31,829 nucleotides of DNA from a virus: positions 1 to 31,829 of the IMG/VR virus record IMGVR_UViG_3300022074_000216; one strand, given 5' to 3'. The notes beneath the pieces are model-generated. The model was not told the origin of the DNA. It did not search any database and saw only the letters and a list, made by a program, of their open reading frames with translations. Each line of letters begins with the position of its first letter. Position 1 is the first letter of the stretch. This document shows positions 12,685 to 23,287 of the stretch, piece after piece. A program made the position numbers and the translations under genes.

Positions 12685-15303
12685 ATGGCAAACCCATTCT
12701 TAAAAAAGCCGGTTGCGGGATCAAATCCCTTTGTTAGGTCTTCAAGACCTTCTAATCCATTTCTTTTAGAGCCTGAGCCTGAGTACAGCGCTGTTCGCTC
12801 CGGTGCCGTTGACTTCCTAGAATCTGCTTTGGGTGTGGGCGATGAACTAGATGCCGCTGTTCGGCTTCTTTCTGGTGAGGTTGATACCTACAACCAAGGA
12901 ATACAGCAATCTCGTGCAGAGCTAGACGCTTTTGAAAGAGCCAATCCTGGGGCGTCCAAATTAATCACAGCCGTTGGCTTTGGTGCTGGTCTATTCGTAC
13001 CTGGTGCCGGTCTTGCCAAGATCGCACAGACAGGCAGTAAGTTAGATAGGGCATTAAAAGTAGCTACCCTTGGTGCCGCCGAAGGTGCCGCGTATGGCTA
13101 TCTGAGTGGCAGAGATGAAGGCCGTTTAGAAGGTGCCGCACTGGGGGCTGGACTCGGTGCTGGTCTTGGCGCTGGAGCCTCCCTGTTAACTCGCAATGCT
13201 GATGAGATTGCCGCCGCAACTCAGAAAGCTGACTCTCAACGAATCGGAGAAAAAGGCGGATTCATTGGCGGGGAGGAGGGCTTTGCAGATGTAGGAAGAG
13301 CAGGGAAAGGCCAGTCAATTACCGATGCCAGCCTACAGAAAAGAGAAAACACCACCATCCTTGATGGCGATGGCATTAAAGACAATATGGGTAAAGCCTC
13401 AAGGACGATAGGCAATATCCTTTTGGGAACTAAAGAGTGGACAGCCAAGAACGTAGGCGCCAGGGCCGCTCGTCTTATCGAAGACTCTGAGATTATGGTT
13501 CGCCATGACTTGAATGAAATCGATAACGTTTTTAATGATGATGATTTTGTTAGCGCATACAAAGTCTTTGAAGAAAACTCCGCACTAAAGAAGATGCTTC
13601 TTCAAATAAACAACAGCCTTGGGGACAAAGCTGTTTCTTGGGATCAGGCGATGAGCGTAGCAAGAACTGCCGAAGAAAAGCAGGCCGTTCAGTTGATGCG
13701 AGATCAAGTAAAGAAAATTCAAGACAAAGATCTTGTGAAGTTCCCTGACGGCGACTATATGCCAACAATCGTTACCGACAAAGACATGCTTGTGTTTGGA
13801 GTTAATAATTATGCAAACCCTGTTGAGGCGATTAAGCAATATGCTAAAGATGTCTCTATGGCGAGGGCGGTGGGAACTAGGTTTAACATTGATTTAAAAA
13901 AACTAGACATTAAAGAGGATTTAGACAACCCAAGAAGCCGCATTGATATCATCTTCAAAAGGATTGATGATGCCGCCAGTGAAGAGTTAAAACTTGCAAA
14001 CGTTAGAAGTGCTGAGGCTGTTCGCAGTAACCTACAGGATGCTCTCCGATCTACACTGATTACTTCTAAGATGGGTGGCGATGCGGTGGGTGCCGTATCA
14101 AGAAGGGCGGTATCTACTGCGTTACTGGCTAACCCTATGAACGCTGTGCTGAACATCGTTGAAGGTGTAACGGCTCCAGTTTTTCAGAATGGCATCAAGG
14201 CTTGGGCGCAGACAGTGCCACGCGGGATCATCGAAACCTTTCCCACCATCTCAAAGATTACTGGCGTAAAACCTAACAAGTGGGTATCAAACGAACAGCT
14301 TGGCCTTGGTCAAAACTTCTATGGTGAAGTGGCTAACACGATTAGCAGGGAAACCATAAAGAACGCTGAGGTCTTTAACTACATCAAGGCTCCAGAGCTT
14401 GTAGGCCGTGGCGTGGATGTCCTTGGTAAAGCCCTGTATCGCGTCTCAGGTGTAGAAAAAGTAAACCGTATGGGCCAGGAAATGCTGTCCAATACGGCTG
14501 TTCAGCGAGCAGTAAACCTAGCCAGAAAAGGTGACGTAAAGTCTATCGAAAAGCTAAAGCGACACGATGGAATGAAGGGGCTGTCGCAGTCTGAGTTTGA
14601 CAGCACAGTCAGCGCATTGCAGAAGATGAAGCAAGGCGGCTCGCTAGATAAAAATGAGCTTGGATATGTCCTGAACTTTGCTGGTGCGGCCATGAATAAA
14701 TGGCAACCAGTTAGTGCCAGTGCAATGCCTCGTGCCTACAACGACAATCCAAACGCTCGAATGATGTACAGCATGCTGTCGTACATGAACCGGCAGATGA
14801 ACAACATCCGAACTGAGGTTGGCTTGAACCTAGCTACCGTTGCAGAGAAGGGCATCAATACTAAGGAAGGTGCTGAAGCCGCAAAGACTGCAATGATTCA
14901 GACAGGAAAGTATGTAGCACTGTTCGGGGTTGTGGCTGGCGTTTGGGATGATGCTCGTAAAACACTGGATCTAAGTAAGAACAAAGACATTGCAGACGTG
15001 CTTACACCAGAAGGCATTGCTTCAGGGACAATGAATCAGCTTGCTTCCAACATTAGTAGTGGCGCTATAAACATACGAGCGAAAGAGTTTGGTGGTCAGA
15101 CTGTAAGCATTAGCCCTGCTCCGTTACAGGCTATCAGTCGTACAGGCACCGGCATGTTAACGGCGGGAGAGAGAATGCTGTCTGGAGAAGAGGATCCGAT
15201 GGAGCCATTGCTTCGCACTGCTCAGACATACGCTCCTGGCTTGGCTAACATCGACAGAATCCTTCGCATGACTACCGGCGAACGGCTGTTAACTGACGAC
15301 TAA
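12685..15303 (+). CDS. Putative large internal virion / DNA ejection protein
   Basis: An 872-residue protein, last of the late operon. The N-terminus carries three NPF motifs (ANPFLKK, SNPFVRS, SNPFLLEP) within 28 residues. Two Gly/Ala-rich hydrophobic segments follow: TAVGFGAGLFVPGAGLA (about residues 93-110) and AALGAGLGAGLGAGAS (about 154-170). These suit a protein that crosses the host membrane during ejection. The remainder is a long helical, weakly basic region. No lytic-transglycosylase or polymerase motif is visible. Similar large proteins end the late operon of many short-tailed phages (T7 gp16 position). The function is inferred from synteny. Its TAA overlaps the stop codon of the convergent NinG-like gene. 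Confidence 0.66.
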   Translation: MANPFLKKPVAGSNPFVRSSRPSNPFLLEPEPEYSAVRSGAVDFLESALGVGDELDAAVRLLSGEVDTYNQGIQQSRAELDAFERANPGASKLITAVGFGAGLFVPGAGLAKIAQTGSKLDRALKVATLGAAEGAAYGYLSGRDEGRLEGAALGAGLGAGLGAGASLLTRNADEIAAATQKADSQRIGEKGGFIGGEEGFADVGRAGKGQSITDASLQKRENTTILDGDGIKDNMGKASRTIGNILLGTKEWTAKNVGARAARLIEDSEIMVRHDLNEIDNVFNDDDFVSAYKVFEENSALKKMLLQINNSLGDKAVSWDQAMSVARTAEEKQAVQLMRDQVKKIQDKDLVKFPDGDYMPTIVTDKDMLVFGVNNYANPVEAIKQYAKDVSMARAVGTRFNIDLKKLDIKEDLDNPRSRIDIIFKRIDDAASEELKLANVRSAEAVRSNLQDALRSTLITSKMGGDAVGAVSRRAVSTALLANPMNAVLNIVEGVTAPVFQNGIKAWAQTVPRGIIETFPTISKITGVKPNKWVSNEQLGLGQNFYGEVANTISRETIKNAEVFNYIKAPELVGRGVDVLGKALYRVSGVEKVNRMGQEMLSNTAVQRAVNLARKGDVKSIEKLKRHDGMKGLSQSEFDSTVSALQKMKQGGSLDKNELGYVLNFAGAAMNKWQPVSASAMPRAYNDNPNARMMYSMLSYMNRQMNNIRTEVGLNLATVAEKGINTKEGAEAAKTAMIQTGKYVALFGVVAGVWDDARKTLDLSKNKDIADVLTPEGIASGTMNQLASNISSGAINIRAKEFGGQTVSISPAPLQAISRTGTGMLTAGERMLSGEEDPMEPLLRTAQTYAPGLANIDRILRMTTGERLLTDD

Positions 15304-15725
15304 TCCCAGCTAACAAACTCTAACCACCCTGCTACCCCTGAGGCCCGTTCGTTCTCCATACGTGCGGCCTCAGTTTTATAGTGTTTAGCGATTAGCTTCT
15401 GTTCCTTGTTCATCCTCTTGCCGAGGTTGATGTCCTCTGCCTTTTCCCTGATCAACTCCAAGGCGCCTTCGCCATAGGTATCAATGTAGTGACGGACAAA
15501 GTAATCAGGGTTGCTACCGTACTTCTGGTGACAGCCGTAGCAGTGAGCAAAGGCATTCATGCCATCGTAACGGATTCCTTTTTTTGATCGGCTAAAGTAG
15601 TGGGAGCAGTGCAATCCTGTACTGTTTGACTCGTACTGTGCGCCACACCCCTGGCACTTGAAGTCGTTGCGTAGCCTGACGCATCTACTGAACCAATGAT
15701 CTGCCGCTGTTCTTTTTAACTTCAC
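15300..15725 (-). CDS. ninG: NinG-like recombination protein (zinc-binding HNH-type fold)
   Basis: A 141-residue protein starting at GTG 15725. It has the lambda NinG/Rap pattern: a conserved basic opening (KRTAADHWFSRCVRLRND), a CxxC (CQGCG), then LHCSHYFSR, RYDGMNAFAHCYGCH, and a closing helix with AEDINLG and LIAKHY. The Cys/His pairs should bind zinc, and the His/Asn residues fit an HNH-like nuclease centre. In lambda, NinG (Rap) resolves branched recombination intermediates and works beside NinB. Here it overlaps the NinB-like gene by four bases (GTGA), so translation is probably coupled. Its stop overlaps the stop of the convergent late operon with no room for a terminator. Confidence 0.85.
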   Translation of the reverse strand: MKLKRTAADHWFSRCVRLRNDFKCQGCGAQYESNSTGLHCSHYFSRSKKGIRYDGMNAFAHCYGCHQKYGSNPDYFVRHYIDTYGEGALELIREKAEDINLGKRMNKEQKLIAKHYKTEAARMENERASGVAGWLEFVSWD

Positions 15726-16147
15726 TTCAATTCATCCTTTAGTTGTTGAGGGAATGGCACATAGACCTGCTTGTTCTCTGAGAGCCACCTAATTAGCACC
15801 TCAGCGGCCTCTGAGAGTTCAGCAGGGGTAAGCTTAGTGGTGGTCTCTTTGTTGAACATGGCCTTTGCAGTGGGCTTGTAGAGCATCTCCTTTACCAGCA
15901 CCTCAGTAAACGGTATCTCAAAGTTATCACTGAATGGATGCCGTACCCAGTAGCCAGCATCATTTAGCTCGATAGCTATCTGCCTGAACCACAAGTGCAT
16001 GGCATTGTTCTGCCGGTCACTGCGTGTGGTGTCCTTGATCGAGTACATGATGTGCTTGCCATCCTCGTACTGCTTTTGCACGAAGCTAATAAAGAACTTC
16101 AGCTTGTTTTTGTTATCGACTATCCAGCGATGTGCAGGGTCTGTCAT
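15722..16147 (-). CDS. NinB-like recombination mediator
   Basis: A 141-residue protein. It begins with a short beta/helix region and then has a characteristic block: TRSDRQNNAMHLWFRQIA, ELNDAGYWVR, EIPFTEVLVKEMLY, KPTAKAMFNKETTT, and a final HVPFP-like end (YVPFPQQLKDELK). This RxxxQNxxxHxWF...ALNDAGY pattern is what I know from phage NinB/Orf-like recombination proteins. Lambda NinB (Orf) binds ssDNA and helps recombinases load in place of RecFOR. The NinG-like gene follows directly with a four-base overlap, as in the lambda nin region. The start ATG 16147 has GGAG eight bases upstream. The 150 bases before it hold the iteron array described separately. Confidence 0.68.
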   Translation of the reverse strand: MTDPAHRWIVDNKNKLKFFISFVQKQYEDGKHIMYSIKDTTRSDRQNNAMHLWFRQIAIELNDAGYWVRHPFSDNFEIPFTEVLVKEMLYKPTAKAMFNKETTTKLTPAELSEAAEVLIRWLSENKQVYVPFPQQLKDELK

Positions 16148-16160
16148 ATTATCTCCATTC

Positions 16161-16296
16161 AGTTTGCCCAGTTTGCCCAGTTTGCCCAGAAATCCCCCAA
16201 TGCCTTAGTTTTAGGGGGCGGGTTAGGTGGTAATCCCGCTAGGGGTGGGGGGTTAAACAAGGGCTTTAGGGGCTAACGGGGCATTCTGGGCATTCT
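16161..16296. repeat. Opposed 9-bp iteron arrays around a G-rich core (candidate origin)
   Basis: On the left are three perfect tandem copies of AGTTTGCCC (16161-16187). On the right are four tandem 9-mers that start with GGGC: GGGCTTTAG, GGGCTAACG, GGGCATTCT and GGGCATTCT (16261-16296). The reverse complement of the left unit is GGGCAAACT, so both arrays share GGGC-N3-CT in opposite orientation. Between them is a G-rich stretch including GGGGTGGGGGG (16242-16252) and a small stem GCGGG/CCCGC (16218-16222 with 16235-16239). It lies between the NinB-like gene and the gene following the AAA ATPase. Phased iterons with a dyad arrangement beside replication genes suggest an origin or an autoregulatory operator; which one is unproven. 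Confidence 0.6.
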
Positions 16297-16297
16297 G

Positions 16298-16582
16298 TTA
16301 AAGCTTGTTTTGTATCCACTCGTTATATATTTGGTAATCTGACGGCCTTGACTGTCCGGCCTCATCAACACGCATGAGCCAATTTGCAGTTTCTTCACTA
16401 AGAATGCTTTCAGAAAACTCATGCCACATTCGCCTTGCTTCCCATGCGGCACGTCCATAAACATCGTCAAGGGGAAGCTCTTTATCTGTCTCCAGCACAA
16501 TGTCAATTGCCTTTAAATAAAGCCTAAACTTTTCTTCTCTAAACTTAAGCTTTACTTGTTTTTTAAATTGATATTCGTTCAT
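16298..16582 (-). CDS. Hypothetical protein in replication operon
   Basis: A 94-residue protein. The start at ATG 16582 is chosen because GGAG lies six bases upstream; a longer in-frame start at 16627 sits inside the ATPase gene. The sequence is helical, basic at the N-terminus (YQFKKQVKLKFREEKFRLYL) and ends in EWIQNKL. No family is recognised. It lies ten bases after the AAA ATPase gene and its stop codon abuts the iteron array. A replication accessory such as a helicase-loading or origin-binding partner is possible from context only. Confidence 0.62.
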   Translation of the reverse strand: MNEYQFKKQVKLKFREEKFRLYLKAIDIVLETDKELPLDDVYGRAAWEARRMWHEFSESILSEETANWLMRVDEAGQSRPSDYQIYNEWIQNKL

Positions 16583-16592
16583 TTCGCTCTCC

Positions 16593-17792
16593 TTACATTG
16601 GGTTCCATCGGTAATACTTCTTGCCATGTGCGCCTCTACGCTCGAGAGTGAGGTTGTTTCCCTTCAGTAGGTCGATGCAGTTACGAAGCATCTTCCTTGT
16701 ACAGCCGTTAGGATTCACCTCATGGTCACTTAGCAGGTCAAACAACTCTGACTGCGCCCATAGCTTGCCTTCTTTCATCACACTACTGAGCAGAATGTAC
16801 TCATCTTCATACTTGGTCATGGCCTTGCCGATGTTAATCTGAGACTTCTGCTTCTCTTTCAACTCGCTGATGTCATCGGCACTCATGAACTGCACAGAAT
16901 CCACGGACTCTTCGTAGTGAACAACTGCGCTAGTTTGCTTGTACTTGAACCCACCCTCGAAACTGATCTGGCTTCGATCCTTTTCATTGATTACTAGAAG
17001 CTCTTGATAGGCGGCGAACTTATCGTTCACTGGGTCAAGGCCAAACATATTGTCTACGTCTGACTTCAGATCGCCCACACCTTCATAGATTAGGCGACCG
17101 TCCATGCTTCTGTGCTTGTTACAGTGGCCTAGCAGGATGACCGTACCGCCTGCCGCCGCAAACTCACGGAAGACGTGTAGCACGTCCCGCATGTCGCCCT
17201 TGTTTAACACTGGCGCAAACTTCTTAAGGGTGTCACAGATGACGATCTTGCCATCGGCTTGACCCTCTTCGCGTATCGCACTAAGCAGGCGTAGCGCATC
17301 ATCGGTGTTTCTCAGCAAAGGATCTGGCGAGTTAGCCAAGGTGATCATGGTCATCCCGTGCTTCCTGCCCATCTTCGCCTTCTGGAGTACACCCTTGGCA
17401 CCGTCGTCTTCGTTGAAATAGATCACGTCGGAGCCTTTTATCAGGTTATTCCGAATGCTCTGGAACAGATTGCCCAGTATCCATACCGTCTTGCCTGCTC
17501 CGCTAGGTGCATACACGAGCGTGACTGTGCCGGTAGTGATCATGCCTGGTATCACGTCTCGCTCTTTGGCAAGGCGCTCTTCCATCTCTTCAATGCGGTC
17601 ATTGACTGCCGCGTACATGAGTTTTGATAGTGCTGATGAGGTTCCGTTTTGCTTGCTGAAATATGGATTGCCTGGGAATGCTTCATTGATTGCTCTTTCT
17701 TTCTCAACCCATGACGCGGGTTGTTTAATGTTGCTTATCGGTACTTCGATTTTATTTTGCTCTTGGCAGTACCAGTCCCAATCGTCGATCAT
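16593..17792 (-). CDS. AAA/RecA-fold replicative ATPase (RepA/AAA_25-like) with winged-helix tail
   Basis: A 399-residue protein. Walker A is APSGAGKT at about residues 95-102, Walker B is KIVICDTLKKF (Asp at about 187), and a sensor-like segment GGTVILLGHCNK follows at about 214-226. This is the RecA-like core of the RepA/AAA_25 family, often the replicative helicase or recombination ATPase in phages lacking a DnaB. The last ~70 residues (LLSSVMKEGKLWAQSELFDLL to YYRWNPM) look like a winged helix, suggesting DNA binding. The start ATG 17792 has GGAG seven bases upstream. It heads the leftward operon ATPase, unknown, NinB-like, NinG-like. It is the only replication-motor candidate in the window. 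RadA/Sak4-type recombinase is the main alternative. Confidence 0.78.
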   Translation of the reverse strand: MIDDWDWYCQEQNKIEVPISNIKQPASWVEKERAINEAFPGNPYFSKQNGTSSALSKLMYAAVNDRIEEMEERLAKERDVIPGMITTGTVTLVYAPSGAGKTVWILGNLFQSIRNNLIKGSDVIYFNEDDGAKGVLQKAKMGRKHGMTMITLANSPDPLLRNTDDALRLLSAIREEGQADGKIVICDTLKKFAPVLNKGDMRDVLHVFREFAAAGGTVILLGHCNKHRSMDGRLIYEGVGDLKSDVDNMFGLDPVNDKFAAYQELLVINEKDRSQISFEGGFKYKQTSAVVHYEESVDSVQFMSADDISELKEKQKSQINIGKAMTKYEDEYILLSSVMKEGKLWAQSELFDLLSDHEVNPNGCTRKMLRNCIDLLKGNNLTLERRGAHGKKYYRWNPM

Positions 17793-17953
17793 TCTTATCT
17801 CCTTTTTTGGCCCAGAAAAGTCTTTAACTTTGGCTTAGTTTTACCCAACTGTCAAACATGATGTGACTGCTGTTGCAAATGTTTACAGATGTTTACATCT
17901 TTATACAACTTTAGTACACTCCATTACATCTCAACACAACAAAGGAGAGAGAG
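17793..17953. promoter_or_regulatory. Divergent control region with tandem ATGTTTACA sites
   Basis: The 161 bases separate the leftward ATPase operon from the rightward annealing-protein operon, so both promoters should lie here. ATGTTTACA occurs twice at a 10-bp period (17879-17887 and 17889-17897), one helical turn apart, as expected for a tandem repressor or activator site. The 14-mer CTTTATACAACTTT follows at 17899-17912. On the minus strand, TTGTGT and TACTAA separated by 17 bases form a modest sigma-70-like promoter for the ATPase operon. Ribosome-binding sites GGAG border both genes. Confidence 0.5.
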
Positions 17954-18559
17954 ATGACAGGAACCGTTAAGATTCACGGCAAGGAATACAAGACTGTAGC
18001 CTTGCGTATTCAGGAGTTCAGGGAGAAGCATCCTGACTTCACCATTCAAACAGAATTGGTTGAGGCTAACGATACCTTGGTCGTTATGAAAGCCACGATA
18101 TCTATGGGGCCTCAGGTAATTGCCACCGGCTATGCTGAAGAGGTTAGGACAGCCAGCAAGATCAACCGTACTTCAGCGTTAGAGAATGCAGAGACCAGCG
18201 CAGTAGGAAGGGCCTTAGCGTTCTTCGGGCTGGGTGGTTCTGAGATAGCCTCAGCGGATGAGGTAGCCAACGCTATTAGTCAGCAGAATAGCCAAGGTTC
18301 CAATGAGGAAATGGAAAGGCTGGTGGCTCATAACGAAGCATGGCGTAACAACTCGGCCTCTATCTACTTCATCAAGGAATACATCAACATGGATGAGCCT
18401 AAGTGGGAGAACGTGGCTGAAGCATGGGCTGAGATTCCAAACGAAGATAAGCAAGCCTTGTGGCTGGCTCCTTCAAAGGGCGGGGTATTTACTACGGCTG
18501 AACGTGCCGCGCTCAAATCCGATGAGTTCAATGCCGCAAGAAAAGTAATGGGAGAGTAA
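17954..18559 (+). CDS. Putative single-strand annealing protein (Rad52/ERF-like)
   Basis: A 201-residue protein starting after AAAGGAGAGAGAG. The first 110 residues hold an alpha/beta core: VALRIQEFREKHPDFTIQTE, a strand VVMKATISM, VIATGYAEEVR, then the signature NRTSALENAETSAVGRALA with FGLGGSEIASADEVANAI. Proteins with this pattern lie beside recombination genes in many phages and I relate them to Rad52/ERF-type annealing proteins from memory. A helical C-terminal domain follows. Such proteins anneal complementary single strands in recombination-dependent replication. The context (NinB-like, NinG-like, RecA-fold ATPase, SSB-like partner two bases downstream) supports this. An alternative is a helicase-loader or ssDNA-binding accessory. 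Confidence 0.55.
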   Translation: MTGTVKIHGKEYKTVALRIQEFREKHPDFTIQTELVEANDTLVVMKATISMGPQVIATGYAEEVRTASKINRTSALENAETSAVGRALAFFGLGGSEIASADEVANAISQQNSQGSNEEMERLVAHNEAWRNNSASIYFIKEYINMDEPKWENVAEAWAEIPNEDKQALWLAPSKGGVFTTAERAALKSDEFNAARKVMGE

Positions 18560-21996: not shown

Positions 21997-22092
21997 TTAA
22001 ATGTCTTTGTATTGATCCCACAACTGGACAGCCATAAAAGCAGTTACCAAAGTAAATATGCCGATAACAATAAGCATTGGTATATGTTCCAT
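21997..22092 (-). CDS. 31-residue single-TM micropeptide
   Basis: A micropeptide starting ATG 22092 after the leader AAGGGGTTAAACA and ending in TAA at 21997-21999. It consists of MEHIPM, one membrane helix LIVIGIFTLVTAFMAVQLW, and DQYKDI. It begins 11 bases after the 57-residue membrane gene and is followed by a terminator hairpin. Its ribosome-binding leader matches that of other genes in the operon, supporting translation despite the length. Confidence 0.55.
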   Translation of the reverse strand: MEHIPMLIVIGIFTLVTAFMAVQLWDQYKDI

Positions 22093-22103
22093 TGTTTAAC
22101 CCC

Positions 22104-22277
22104 TTAGAAACGATTTAGTAGATAGACCAAAGCAAGCGCAAAGAATCCAGCGGATCCCGCGTACAGTGCGTCCATTAAGAAAAGGCCACCCATAAGGATG
22201 AGTGAGGTAAAGAGAAGCGATAGACCTAGAGTGATCAGTATTACTTCCATGATGGTGATTTGTGTTGGCTTGCTCAT
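22104..22277 (-). CDS. 57-residue two-TM membrane protein
   Basis: First gene of the leftward early operon, ATG 22277, in a frame different from the overlapping 84-residue shadow. The product opens MSKPTQITIM and has two hydrophobic helices, EVILITLGLSLLFTSLILMG and AGSAGFFALALVYLLNRF. It ends 11 bases before the next micropeptide. AAAGG precedes the ATG at about 9 bases. Early expression of two adjacent membrane micropeptides suggests an envelope or superinfection role, by inference. A second internal Met (codon 10) is an alternative start. Confidence 0.55.
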   Translation of the reverse strand: MSKPTQITIMEVILITLGLSLLFTSLILMGGLFLMDALYAGSAGFFALALVYLLNRF

Positions 22278-22340
22278 TTGTAAAACCTTTGTTTGTTGTT
22301 GATGGTTTTAATCTAACGGATGACCTCAAAGGATTTTCAC

Positions 22341-22380
22341 AATGTGACAAAACTTTTTTAGTTTTTTTGTGAATGTGACA
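22341..22380. repeat. Direct repeat AATGTGACA, 31 bp apart (operator-like)
   Basis: AATGTGACA occurs at 22341-22349 and 22372-22380, about three helical turns apart, separated by an A/T-rich spacer with two T runs. The first copy is part of an imperfect dyad, CACA-A-TGTG (22338-22346). It lies 64-103 bases upstream of the first leftward gene, suitable for an operator or activator site. Confidence 0.5.
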
Positions 22381-22403
22381 TTTTGAGATTGGATTGGGTT
22401 GGG

Positions 22404-22424
22404 TAGCTCATGGTTAGCTCATGG
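22404..22424. repeat. Direct repeat TAGCTCATGG, period 11
   Basis: TAGCTCATGG at 22404-22413 and again at 22415-22424, one base between copies, period 11. The near-helical period suggests side-by-side protein binding on one DNA face. Confidence 0.45.
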
Positions 22425-22463
22425 GGTACTTCATCCACTCTCACACCTCACATTTCTCCCCTC

Positions 22464-22512
22464 ATCTATTGGCATACTCAGTGCCACAATCTATTGGCAT
22501 TCCGAGTGCCAA
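22464..22512. repeat. Two 25-bp-spaced elements with internal dyad TTGGCA-N7-TGCCA
   Basis: ATCTATTGGCAT-N5-GTGCCA occurs at 22464-22486 and at 22489-22511, period 25. Only three of 23 positions differ, all inside the loop. Each has the palindrome TTGGCA-N7-TGCCA, extended to TGCCAA in the second copy. Conserved arms with a variable loop are typical of tandem operator or iteron sites for a dimeric DNA-binding protein. Confidence 0.6.
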
Positions 22513-22544
22513 TTGCTGGGATTTTTTCGGGGTGGGGGGGGTGT

Positions 22545-22567
22545 TGCGTATGTGCGTGTGCGTGTGT
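22545..22567. other. 23-bp alternating purine-pyrimidine tract after a G8 run
   Basis: TGCGTATGTGCGTGTGCGTG plus TGT alternates pyrimidine and purine without exception for 23 bp, mostly GT/GC steps, which favours Z-DNA under negative supercoiling. It lies four bases after the G8 run at 22534-22541. A structural or unwinding element is an inference. Confidence 0.5.
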
Positions 22568-22729
22568 TGCCTCTCAGACACAAAAAAGAGCCGTTTTAGC
22601 CTTATTCCAACTCCTTGATCCACCTCATGTTTTTATAACTGTTTTGCATAGATCAACTATTAGAGTAGAGTGCCTGTTGTGTAGTCCGTATTTTATAAGT
22701 AGGATAGGGAGGGAGGGTTGGTTAAGTAG

Positions 22730-23287
22730 ATGTTGAAAAAACATCGAAGCTTTAGCTTAACCTGTGTTTTTAAAATGTTAATCACAATCAACAAAAGAGA
22801 TGCTCATCAGTCGCAGTTGATGGGTGCTGACACAGTTAAGCTGTGTGAAATGCAGGGATTTCCCCCTCGATTAGAAAACAAACGACAGTCTAGGGTAGAT
22901 GCAAACATCCTTGGTTTTAAAGCTGAGTTTGCGATAGCCCGTTTATTTCAGATAGATCCCCCAACCGTTAATGTGCTTACCGATGGTGGTGTTGATTTAT
23001 GGTTTGATGACATACCTATTGATGTCAAAACGACCAATAAAGAATACGGCCCTTTGGTATTCGACAATCCTGATAAGTTTCAGGCAGAGATTGCGATACT
23101 GGTCGGACAAACAGAACACAAAAACACGCTACGGGTTAATGGCTGGATGGATCGCGCTTCTTTCCTATCTAACTCTACGCCACATGATTACGGATACGGC
23201 CCTAGGATTAAGATGGAGATAGATGAGTTGCGACCTATAGAACAGTTATGGAAAGGTTTGATGCAAAGGAGATTTAAAAATGACTGA
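22730..23287 (+). CDS. PD-(D/E)XK nuclease-like protein
   Basis: A 185-residue protein. The core shows the PD-(D/E)XK pattern: a helix with Glu (FKAEFAIARLF), then GGVDLWFDD, then PIDVKTT (D-x-K on a strand). These line up as E, D and (I)D-V-K, the expected metal-binding set for the restriction-endonuclease fold. No sequence-specific recognition domain is apparent. The start is uncertain: ATG 22730 has GGGAGGG about 12 bases upstream, and in-frame ATG 22775 (MLITINKRDAHQSQL) looks like the conserved beginning. It heads the late operon and overlaps TerS by eight bases. Degradation of host DNA, end processing or packaging-linked resolution are possible roles. Confidence 0.68.
   Translation: MLKKHRSFSLTCVFKMLITINKRDAHQSQLMGADTVKLCEMQGFPPRLENKRQSRVDANILGFKAEFAIARLFQIDPPTVNVLTDGGVDLWFDDIPIDVKTTNKEYGPLVFDNPDKFQAEIAILVGQTEHKNTLRVNGWMDRASFLSNSTPHDYGYGPRIKMEIDELRPIEQLWKGLMQRRFKND

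Follow-up and report, generated by a model that had tools for sequence, protein, structure and literature searches.

A conserved facing-iteron element 3′ of a RecA-fold ATPase gene is a candidate replication origin of an uncultured phage group

We analysed a 31,829-base virus record from IMG/VR (hereafter the window) and found a repeat element that is probably an iteron-type replication origin of a phage group, located directly 3′ of the gene for its proposed initiator, a RecA-fold ATPase. A preliminary description had already proposed a candidate replication origin here. The proposal is now supported by the conservation of the element in 100 of 100 distinct relatives, by the covariation of ATPase residue 370 with one base of the iterons, by the joint exchange of the ATPase C-terminal domain and the element between phages, and by the same layout in analogues from the literature. 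From these comparisons, we infer that the element has origin function and that replication would start here.

Facing iteron arrays between an ATPase gene and ninB

The features of the element and its surroundings are as follows, in window coordinates.

16161-16169, 16170-16178 and 16179-16187, plus strand: array 1, three identical 9-bp iterons AGTTTGCCC
16188-16196 (AGAAATCCC) and 16197-16205 (CCAATGCCT), plus strand: two degenerate iterons in phase with array 1
16206-16260, no strand: core between the arrays, TTTTAGGGGGCGGGTT ... TAGGGGTGGGGGGTTAAAC on the plus strand
16261-16269 (GGGCTTTAG) and 16270-16278 (GGGCTAACG), plus strand: two degenerate iterons of array 2, with the same units in relatives
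16279-16287 and 16288-16296, plus strand: two identical iterons GGGCATTCT of array 2, inverted, reading AGAATGCCC on the operon strand
16298-16581, minus strand: small inserted gene in the interval between the ATPase gene and the element; its ORF is open from 16627, with an ATG at 16581 that has a Shine-Dalgarno sequence
16593-17792, minus strand: RecA/KaiC/RepA-fold ATPase of 399 amino acids (PF13481 AAA_25, E = 1.4e-9)
ATPase residues ~320-399: predicted C-terminal winged helix, with the predicted recognition helix at residues 366-376 including R370
15722-16147, minus strand: NinB/Orf-like recombination mediator, at the distal edge of the exchanged cassette
15300-15725, minus strand: NinG/Rap-like endonuclease, completing the lambda-like order replication, ninB, ninG

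On the operon (minus) strand, the element reads [AGAATGCCC]n, a C-rich core and [GGGCAAACT]n. Array 1 appears on this strand as three copies of GGGCAAACT; it is the array nearest ninB and is conserved in relatives as their right arm. The degenerate unit AGAAATCCC (16188-16196) could be parsed in close relatives, too. The iteron layout given in the preliminary description stands in that three identical 9-mers face four 9-mers led by GGGC, but the sequence GGGC-N3-CT, said to be common to both arrays, is shared with the left array only by the two outer right units and not by the inner two. The G runs of 4 to 6 bases and the GGG-N5-GGGG-N5-GGGG series are both present as described.

The repeats are real and beyond chance. 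The window contains a single dyad of at least three CCC at 9-bp spacing facing at least three GGG at 9-bp spacing, and none of 300 dinucleotide-preserving shuffles produced such a dyad or, likewise, a lag-9 match run of at least 18 (0/300). The loose motif AGNNNGCCC alone is not enriched in the window (17 seen versus 12.8 expected), so that the signal lies in the arrangement rather than in the word. No AT-rich block was found in the G/C-rich core or beside the window element.

The gene neighbourhood is as previously noted: the element is flanked by the ATPase gene and the small inserted gene on one side and by ninB, followed by the NinG-like gene, on the other; all these genes are encoded on the minus strand. 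It begins 1 base past the stop codon of the ORF at 16298 and occupies the space between this ORF and ninB. The order of helicase, ninB and ninG parallels the replication/nin region of lambda. The remaining record carries terminase, portal, capsid, tail and lysis-type genes as well as unknowns, and no tRNA was found in the window. The window ORFs searched, a set that leaves out several small ones, yielded no further recognisable initiator, helicase, primase or polymerase, in agreement with the earlier remark that no other replication initiator is visible.

The small gene at 16298-16581 is missing or replaced in most relatives and is therefore no part of the mechanism. The window (16298-16627) and six relatives (L009, L010, L012, L019, L087 and L094) carry differing small genes between the ATPase gene and the element. 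These ORFs share a constant N-terminal stretch, MARSITDGTQCKE, which is an out-of-frame reading of the ATPase 3′ end, indicating that the true starts are internal ATGs. In a subgroup (L038, L044 and L052), a 386-residue protein with an HTH-like start (GLSQYQAAK) and a 75-residue protein are encoded between the element and ninB. Two further repeat regions were observed in the window. A 10-nt tandem repeat, ATGTTTACAG, at 17879-17918 separates the ATPase gene from the gene at 17954, within their divergent promoter region, and is a possible operator. Two 25-nt repeats of the ATCTATTGGCATACCCAGTGCCACA type at 22464-22511 (intergenic region 22021-22730), accompanied by a G-run and GTGTGCG tracts, precede the rightward late genes and possibly form a second regulatory or binding region.

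Conservation of the element and its link to the ATPase C-terminal domain

Two viral-contig scans yielded about 160 loci of relatives, a number increased by a third scan that used L074, a distant relative. The conservation count covered 91 distinct relatives with 300 or more bases past the ATPase gene and used the dyad pattern CCC-N6-CCC / GGG-N6-GGG. The dyad was found 3′ of the ATPase gene in all of them (91/91), either ~50 bp or less from the stop codon or past one inserted gene. In the enlarged set, the element sought at this location, adjacent to the gene of the proposed initiator, was present in 100 of 100 distinct relatives, and 98 distinct element-plus-tail combinations scored positive. 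The pattern misses two relatives, L193 and L194, in which the element is present with one unit mutated and a wider spacing. Over all fetched loci, 244 dyad matches fall at ATPase 3′ ends and 3 elsewhere; two of the latter are true elements on contigs that end before the ATPase gene and one is unrelated. The inserted genes vary among relatives and are found before or after the element, never within it.

Pattern hits in L162 and L173 were rejected as chance inverted repeats, and L176:770-879 as a different repeat family on an unrelated contig, whose many GCCCGGGCAAC/GGTTGCCCGG repeats fit the loose dyad pattern. A mobile or repeated element was ruled out, as the genomes contain no further copies. 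Outside the viral contigs, relatives are scarce: the window has no nucleotide relatives in public phage records, the ATPase has no recognisable protein relatives in 50,697 phage records, terminase matches in public phage records stay below 60% identity, and bacterial genomes yielded one related fragment, in a Gammaproteobacteria MAG.

Most relatives contain the core motif TTTAGGGGGC in either orientation, often as a perfect G/C palindrome. Elements of the window type and the L036 type are mutual inversions (AGAATGCCC..GGGCAAACT versus AGTTTGCCC..GGGCATTCT). The two forms, together with the core motif occurring in either orientation, indicate that inversion of the element is tolerated, which fits a binding or start site that is symmetrical. 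AT-rich flanks were found only in the compact L150-type elements. An extended element is seen in the L074 relatives L192, L193 and L194, in which a second right array of the GGGCTAACT type with its own GCCCCCTAAAA motif follows ~150 bp past the first.

The preliminary description also considered a G-quadruplex in the core. This feature is not conserved: short-loop G-quadruplexes (loops of 1-3) occur in 0 of 91 elements, 29 of the 91 have no G-quadruplex pattern with loops of 1-7 on either strand, and in many relatives the core is a G/C palindrome.

Position 6 of the iterons, just before the CCC, is mostly G (..GCCC); in 15 genomes it is C, A or T. This difference coincides with residue 370 of the ATPase. 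All 15 genomes without G at position 6 have Leu370, with G in 0 of 114 units, and all other genomes have Arg370, with G in 548 of 577 units. The only alignment columns that separate the two classes perfectly are 344, 351 and 370, all in the ATPase C-terminal domain, and among them only column 370 has a charged residue that is constant in one class. AlphaFold predicts the C-terminal domain as a winged helix (pLDDT ~88), and residue 370 falls inside the predicted recognition helix (366-376). In a Foldseek search, the domain resembled DNA-binding winged helices, including DNA-bound Zur, PadR/LmrR and FOXO, with weak E-values. An arginine that reads a G:C pair and is lost together with the G is a familiar pattern, and R370 probably contacts the G:C pair at position 6. 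The preference at base 5 is partially associated with wing residues 389-391, an association confounded with phylogeny.

The same position bears on the folding of the element. A hairpin of RNA (or single-strand DNA) could serve mRNA stability, translation or termination in the operon. The arms can indeed pair; folding z-scores against shuffles average -4.8 in the Arg class and -3.0 in the Leu class, and single-strand folding is stable (z < -2) in 85 of 91 elements, which follows partly from the facing copies of one motif. However, pairing potential is automatic for two such copies. At unit positions 3-4, the arms match in only 21-29% of the elements, and every repeat of the majority type retains a 2x2 mismatch. 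This mispairing speaks against an RNA role and against selection for a perfect hairpin. The arms of the Leu class change jointly, but the changes at position 6 do not compensate each other (an A on the left facing a G on the right, for example), and an RNA role does not predict that this position tracks a residue in the recognition helix of a protein. No intrinsic terminator was found in the element. We consider such a hairpin function very unlikely.

The winged helix and the iterons have been swapped together, as a cassette of ~0.4 kb, among otherwise near-identical phages. The relatives L005 and L007 share ~95-100% identity up to ATPase codon 300 (one bin at 87%), 58-83% in the C-terminal domain, 45-58% in the element and again 95-100% from ninB on. 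The pairs window/L003, L026/L031 and L009/L014-15 show the same identity profile, and the C-terminal domain and the iterons were never seen separated. Leu-class changes number one on the C-domain tree, seven on the tree of the ATPase core (residues 46-300) and nine on the ninB tree; a single Leu clade is rejected on both the core tree (p-AU 7e-36) and the ninB tree (p-AU 6e-5). The pairwise profiles and the trees together indicate that the two parts travel jointly between near-identical backbones. A sign test on independent pairs gave no significance with the only 3 well-supported pairs. Since Arg changed to Leu once on the C-domain tree, the residue/base match represents one event spread by exchange rather than many independent origins, and linkage explains part of the co-inheritance because the C-terminal domain adjoins the element.

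The covariation and the exchange both support the earlier suggestion that the ATPase C-terminal domain binds the arrays, and the element as the landing site of this winged helix, presumably by direct binding, is well supported by the sequence comparisons. The 94-residue protein, also suggested as a binder, is superfluous because the ATPase carries a predicted winged helix of its own.

Regulation, recombination or initiation

Binding by the C-terminal domain would be equally well supported if the element were an autoregulatory operator, an alternative that the preliminary description had raised for the leftward operon. The ATPase on the arrays would then control transcription either of ninB and ninG downstream or of the operon to which it belongs. 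The element is indeed located within the leftward operon and lies just upstream of the ninB ribosome-binding site. The array is, however, 3′ of the ATPase gene, and neither the ATPase promoter nor any other part of the window carries a further one; a scan for sigma-70-type sites found no promoter-like site in the element; with genes inserted on both sides, the distance to a start codon is not fixed; and a repressor has no need of a RecA-fold ATPase domain. The operator is in our view unlikely. The element may still serve regulation, in addition to replication or in its place, though nothing in the sequence favours this.

The ATPase core itself was modelled with a pLDDT of 30-70 in the full-length AlphaFold prediction, which gives no class beyond RecA-fold. 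Its profile and structure matches comprise the RecA/KaiC fold, RepA as a non-significant PDB match (1G8Y, E = 0.93) and a weak Sak4 match (E = 0.018). Since the core is placed only as RecA-fold, it may be a Sak4/RadA-like recombinase that works with NinB and NinG, with the element as its loading site. The adjoining NinB and NinG genes, the weak Sak4 match and the presence of RecA and RadA among the structural matches are in line with such a recombination site. To our knowledge, Sak4-type recombinases require no sequence-specific site, and this role would leave initiation unexplained, with no other initiator, helicase or primase among the window ORFs searched. We therefore regard a recombination site as highly improbable.

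For the replication origin, we envisage the following mechanism. The RecA-fold, RepA/KaiC-like ATPase would bind each 9-bp unit (TGCCC/GGGCA core) through its C-terminal winged helix, whose recognition helix would read the G:C pair at position 6 through R370. Given the facing arrays, a pair of oligomers, probably ring-shaped, would assemble around the core in opposite orientation. ATP hydrolysis would then open or extrude the core. The core lacks the AT-rich character of an unwinding element and has a strong tendency to form a hairpin or cruciform, so that opening may proceed by extrusion of such a structure. The ATPase, assumed here to have helicase activity, or a recruited host helicase could start two forks for bidirectional replication, and NinB and NinG would act later, in recombination.

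An AT-rich DNA unwinding element is absent in or beside most elements. Such elements are typical of many origins, not all, and the absence weakens the claim to a textbook iteron origin. The GC skew, expected to switch at an origin in the preliminary description, does not switch at the element: the third-position skew of the coding strand is +0.044 to the left versus +0.029 to the right (plus-strand genes).

More tentatively, the phage group may represent an undescribed replicon class, in which a RecA/KaiC-fold (RSF1010 RepA-like) ATPase with its own origin-recognition winged helix would be both initiator and helicase, acting at a G/C-rich facing-iteron origin without an AT-rich element. Co-circulating phages would repeatedly exchange the recognition domain and the origin as a cassette that sets specificity, perhaps under selection by competitors or origin-targeting nucleases. 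We regard this class as a plausible proposal, held with some reserve. With the element and the ATPase, a large group of uncultured phages gains a concrete candidate for its replication origin and initiator. The pair of R370 and G6 constitutes a testable prediction of one residue and one base, the two-sided exchange of domain and origin offers an unusually clean natural experiment on the evolution of replication specificity, and the facing G/C-rich layout bears on origin opening without an AT-rich element.

Comparison with known replication systems

Close parallels in layout are found in the staphylococcal pathogenicity islands (SaPI) and in SCCmec. In SaPI Rep, the C-terminal domain recognises iterons that immediately follow the gene, and the protein apparently binds them as two hexamers; for SCCmec Cch2, the bound repeats lie in a comparable position and constitute a putative origin (PMC7581432). 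As in these systems, the gene of an initiator-helicase would be followed here by an iteron origin for the C-terminal domain of the protein. The helicase core is of the DUF927 or D5/Primase_Cterm type in SaPI Rep and Cch2, whereas here it belongs to the RecA/KaiC/AAA_25 type. The iterons of Cch2 are shorter (5 nt), and the arrays of the present element face each other across a G/C-rich core.

In phage P4, the winged-helix domain of the alpha helicase binds repeats at the origin (PMC4234260), resembling the winged-helix domain predicted here for the origin repeats. P4 alpha differs by its Toprim primase and another helicase core, and no primase domain was found in the present protein. A homologous helicase core (DUF927, D5 or SF3) was not found; the ATPase core is of the AAA_25/RecA-KaiC type. 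Because its core type differs from those of SaPI Rep and P4 alpha, the present system would work like them without being a member of their families.

The origin of the crenarchaeal plasmid pRN1 is a stem-loop of ~100 bp on the 3′ side of orf904, the gene of a protein with a C-terminal winged helix (PMC4234260). The present system is similar in the position of an element that may fold as a stem-loop, directly 3′ of the proposed replication gene, in an arrangement that is conserved despite low conservation of the sequence, and in the predicted C-terminal winged helix. Unlike the present element, the pRN1 origin lacks iterons, and ORF904 has prim/pol and SF3 domains.

By profile, the nearest ATPase in the PDB is RSF1010 RepA (1G8Y), at a non-significant E of 0.93, which shares the AAA_25 fold class. 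At RSF1010 oriV, the iterons are read by a separate protein, RepC, and unwinding is carried out by RepA, whereas recognition appears to be fused to the ATPase here.

The exchange of specificity also has a precedent. In the PLE satellites of V. cholerae, the DNA-binding domain of RepA and the origin were swapped jointly under pressure from the nuclease Odn (PMC8263062), much as the DNA-binding domain and origin appear to be exchanged together between the relatives studied here. PLE differs in being a satellite with an initiator of the RepA_N family and iterons of ~30 bp. What appears to be new relative to all these systems is the combination of a RecA/KaiC-type core with its own recognition domain and a facing, G/C-rich origin layout.
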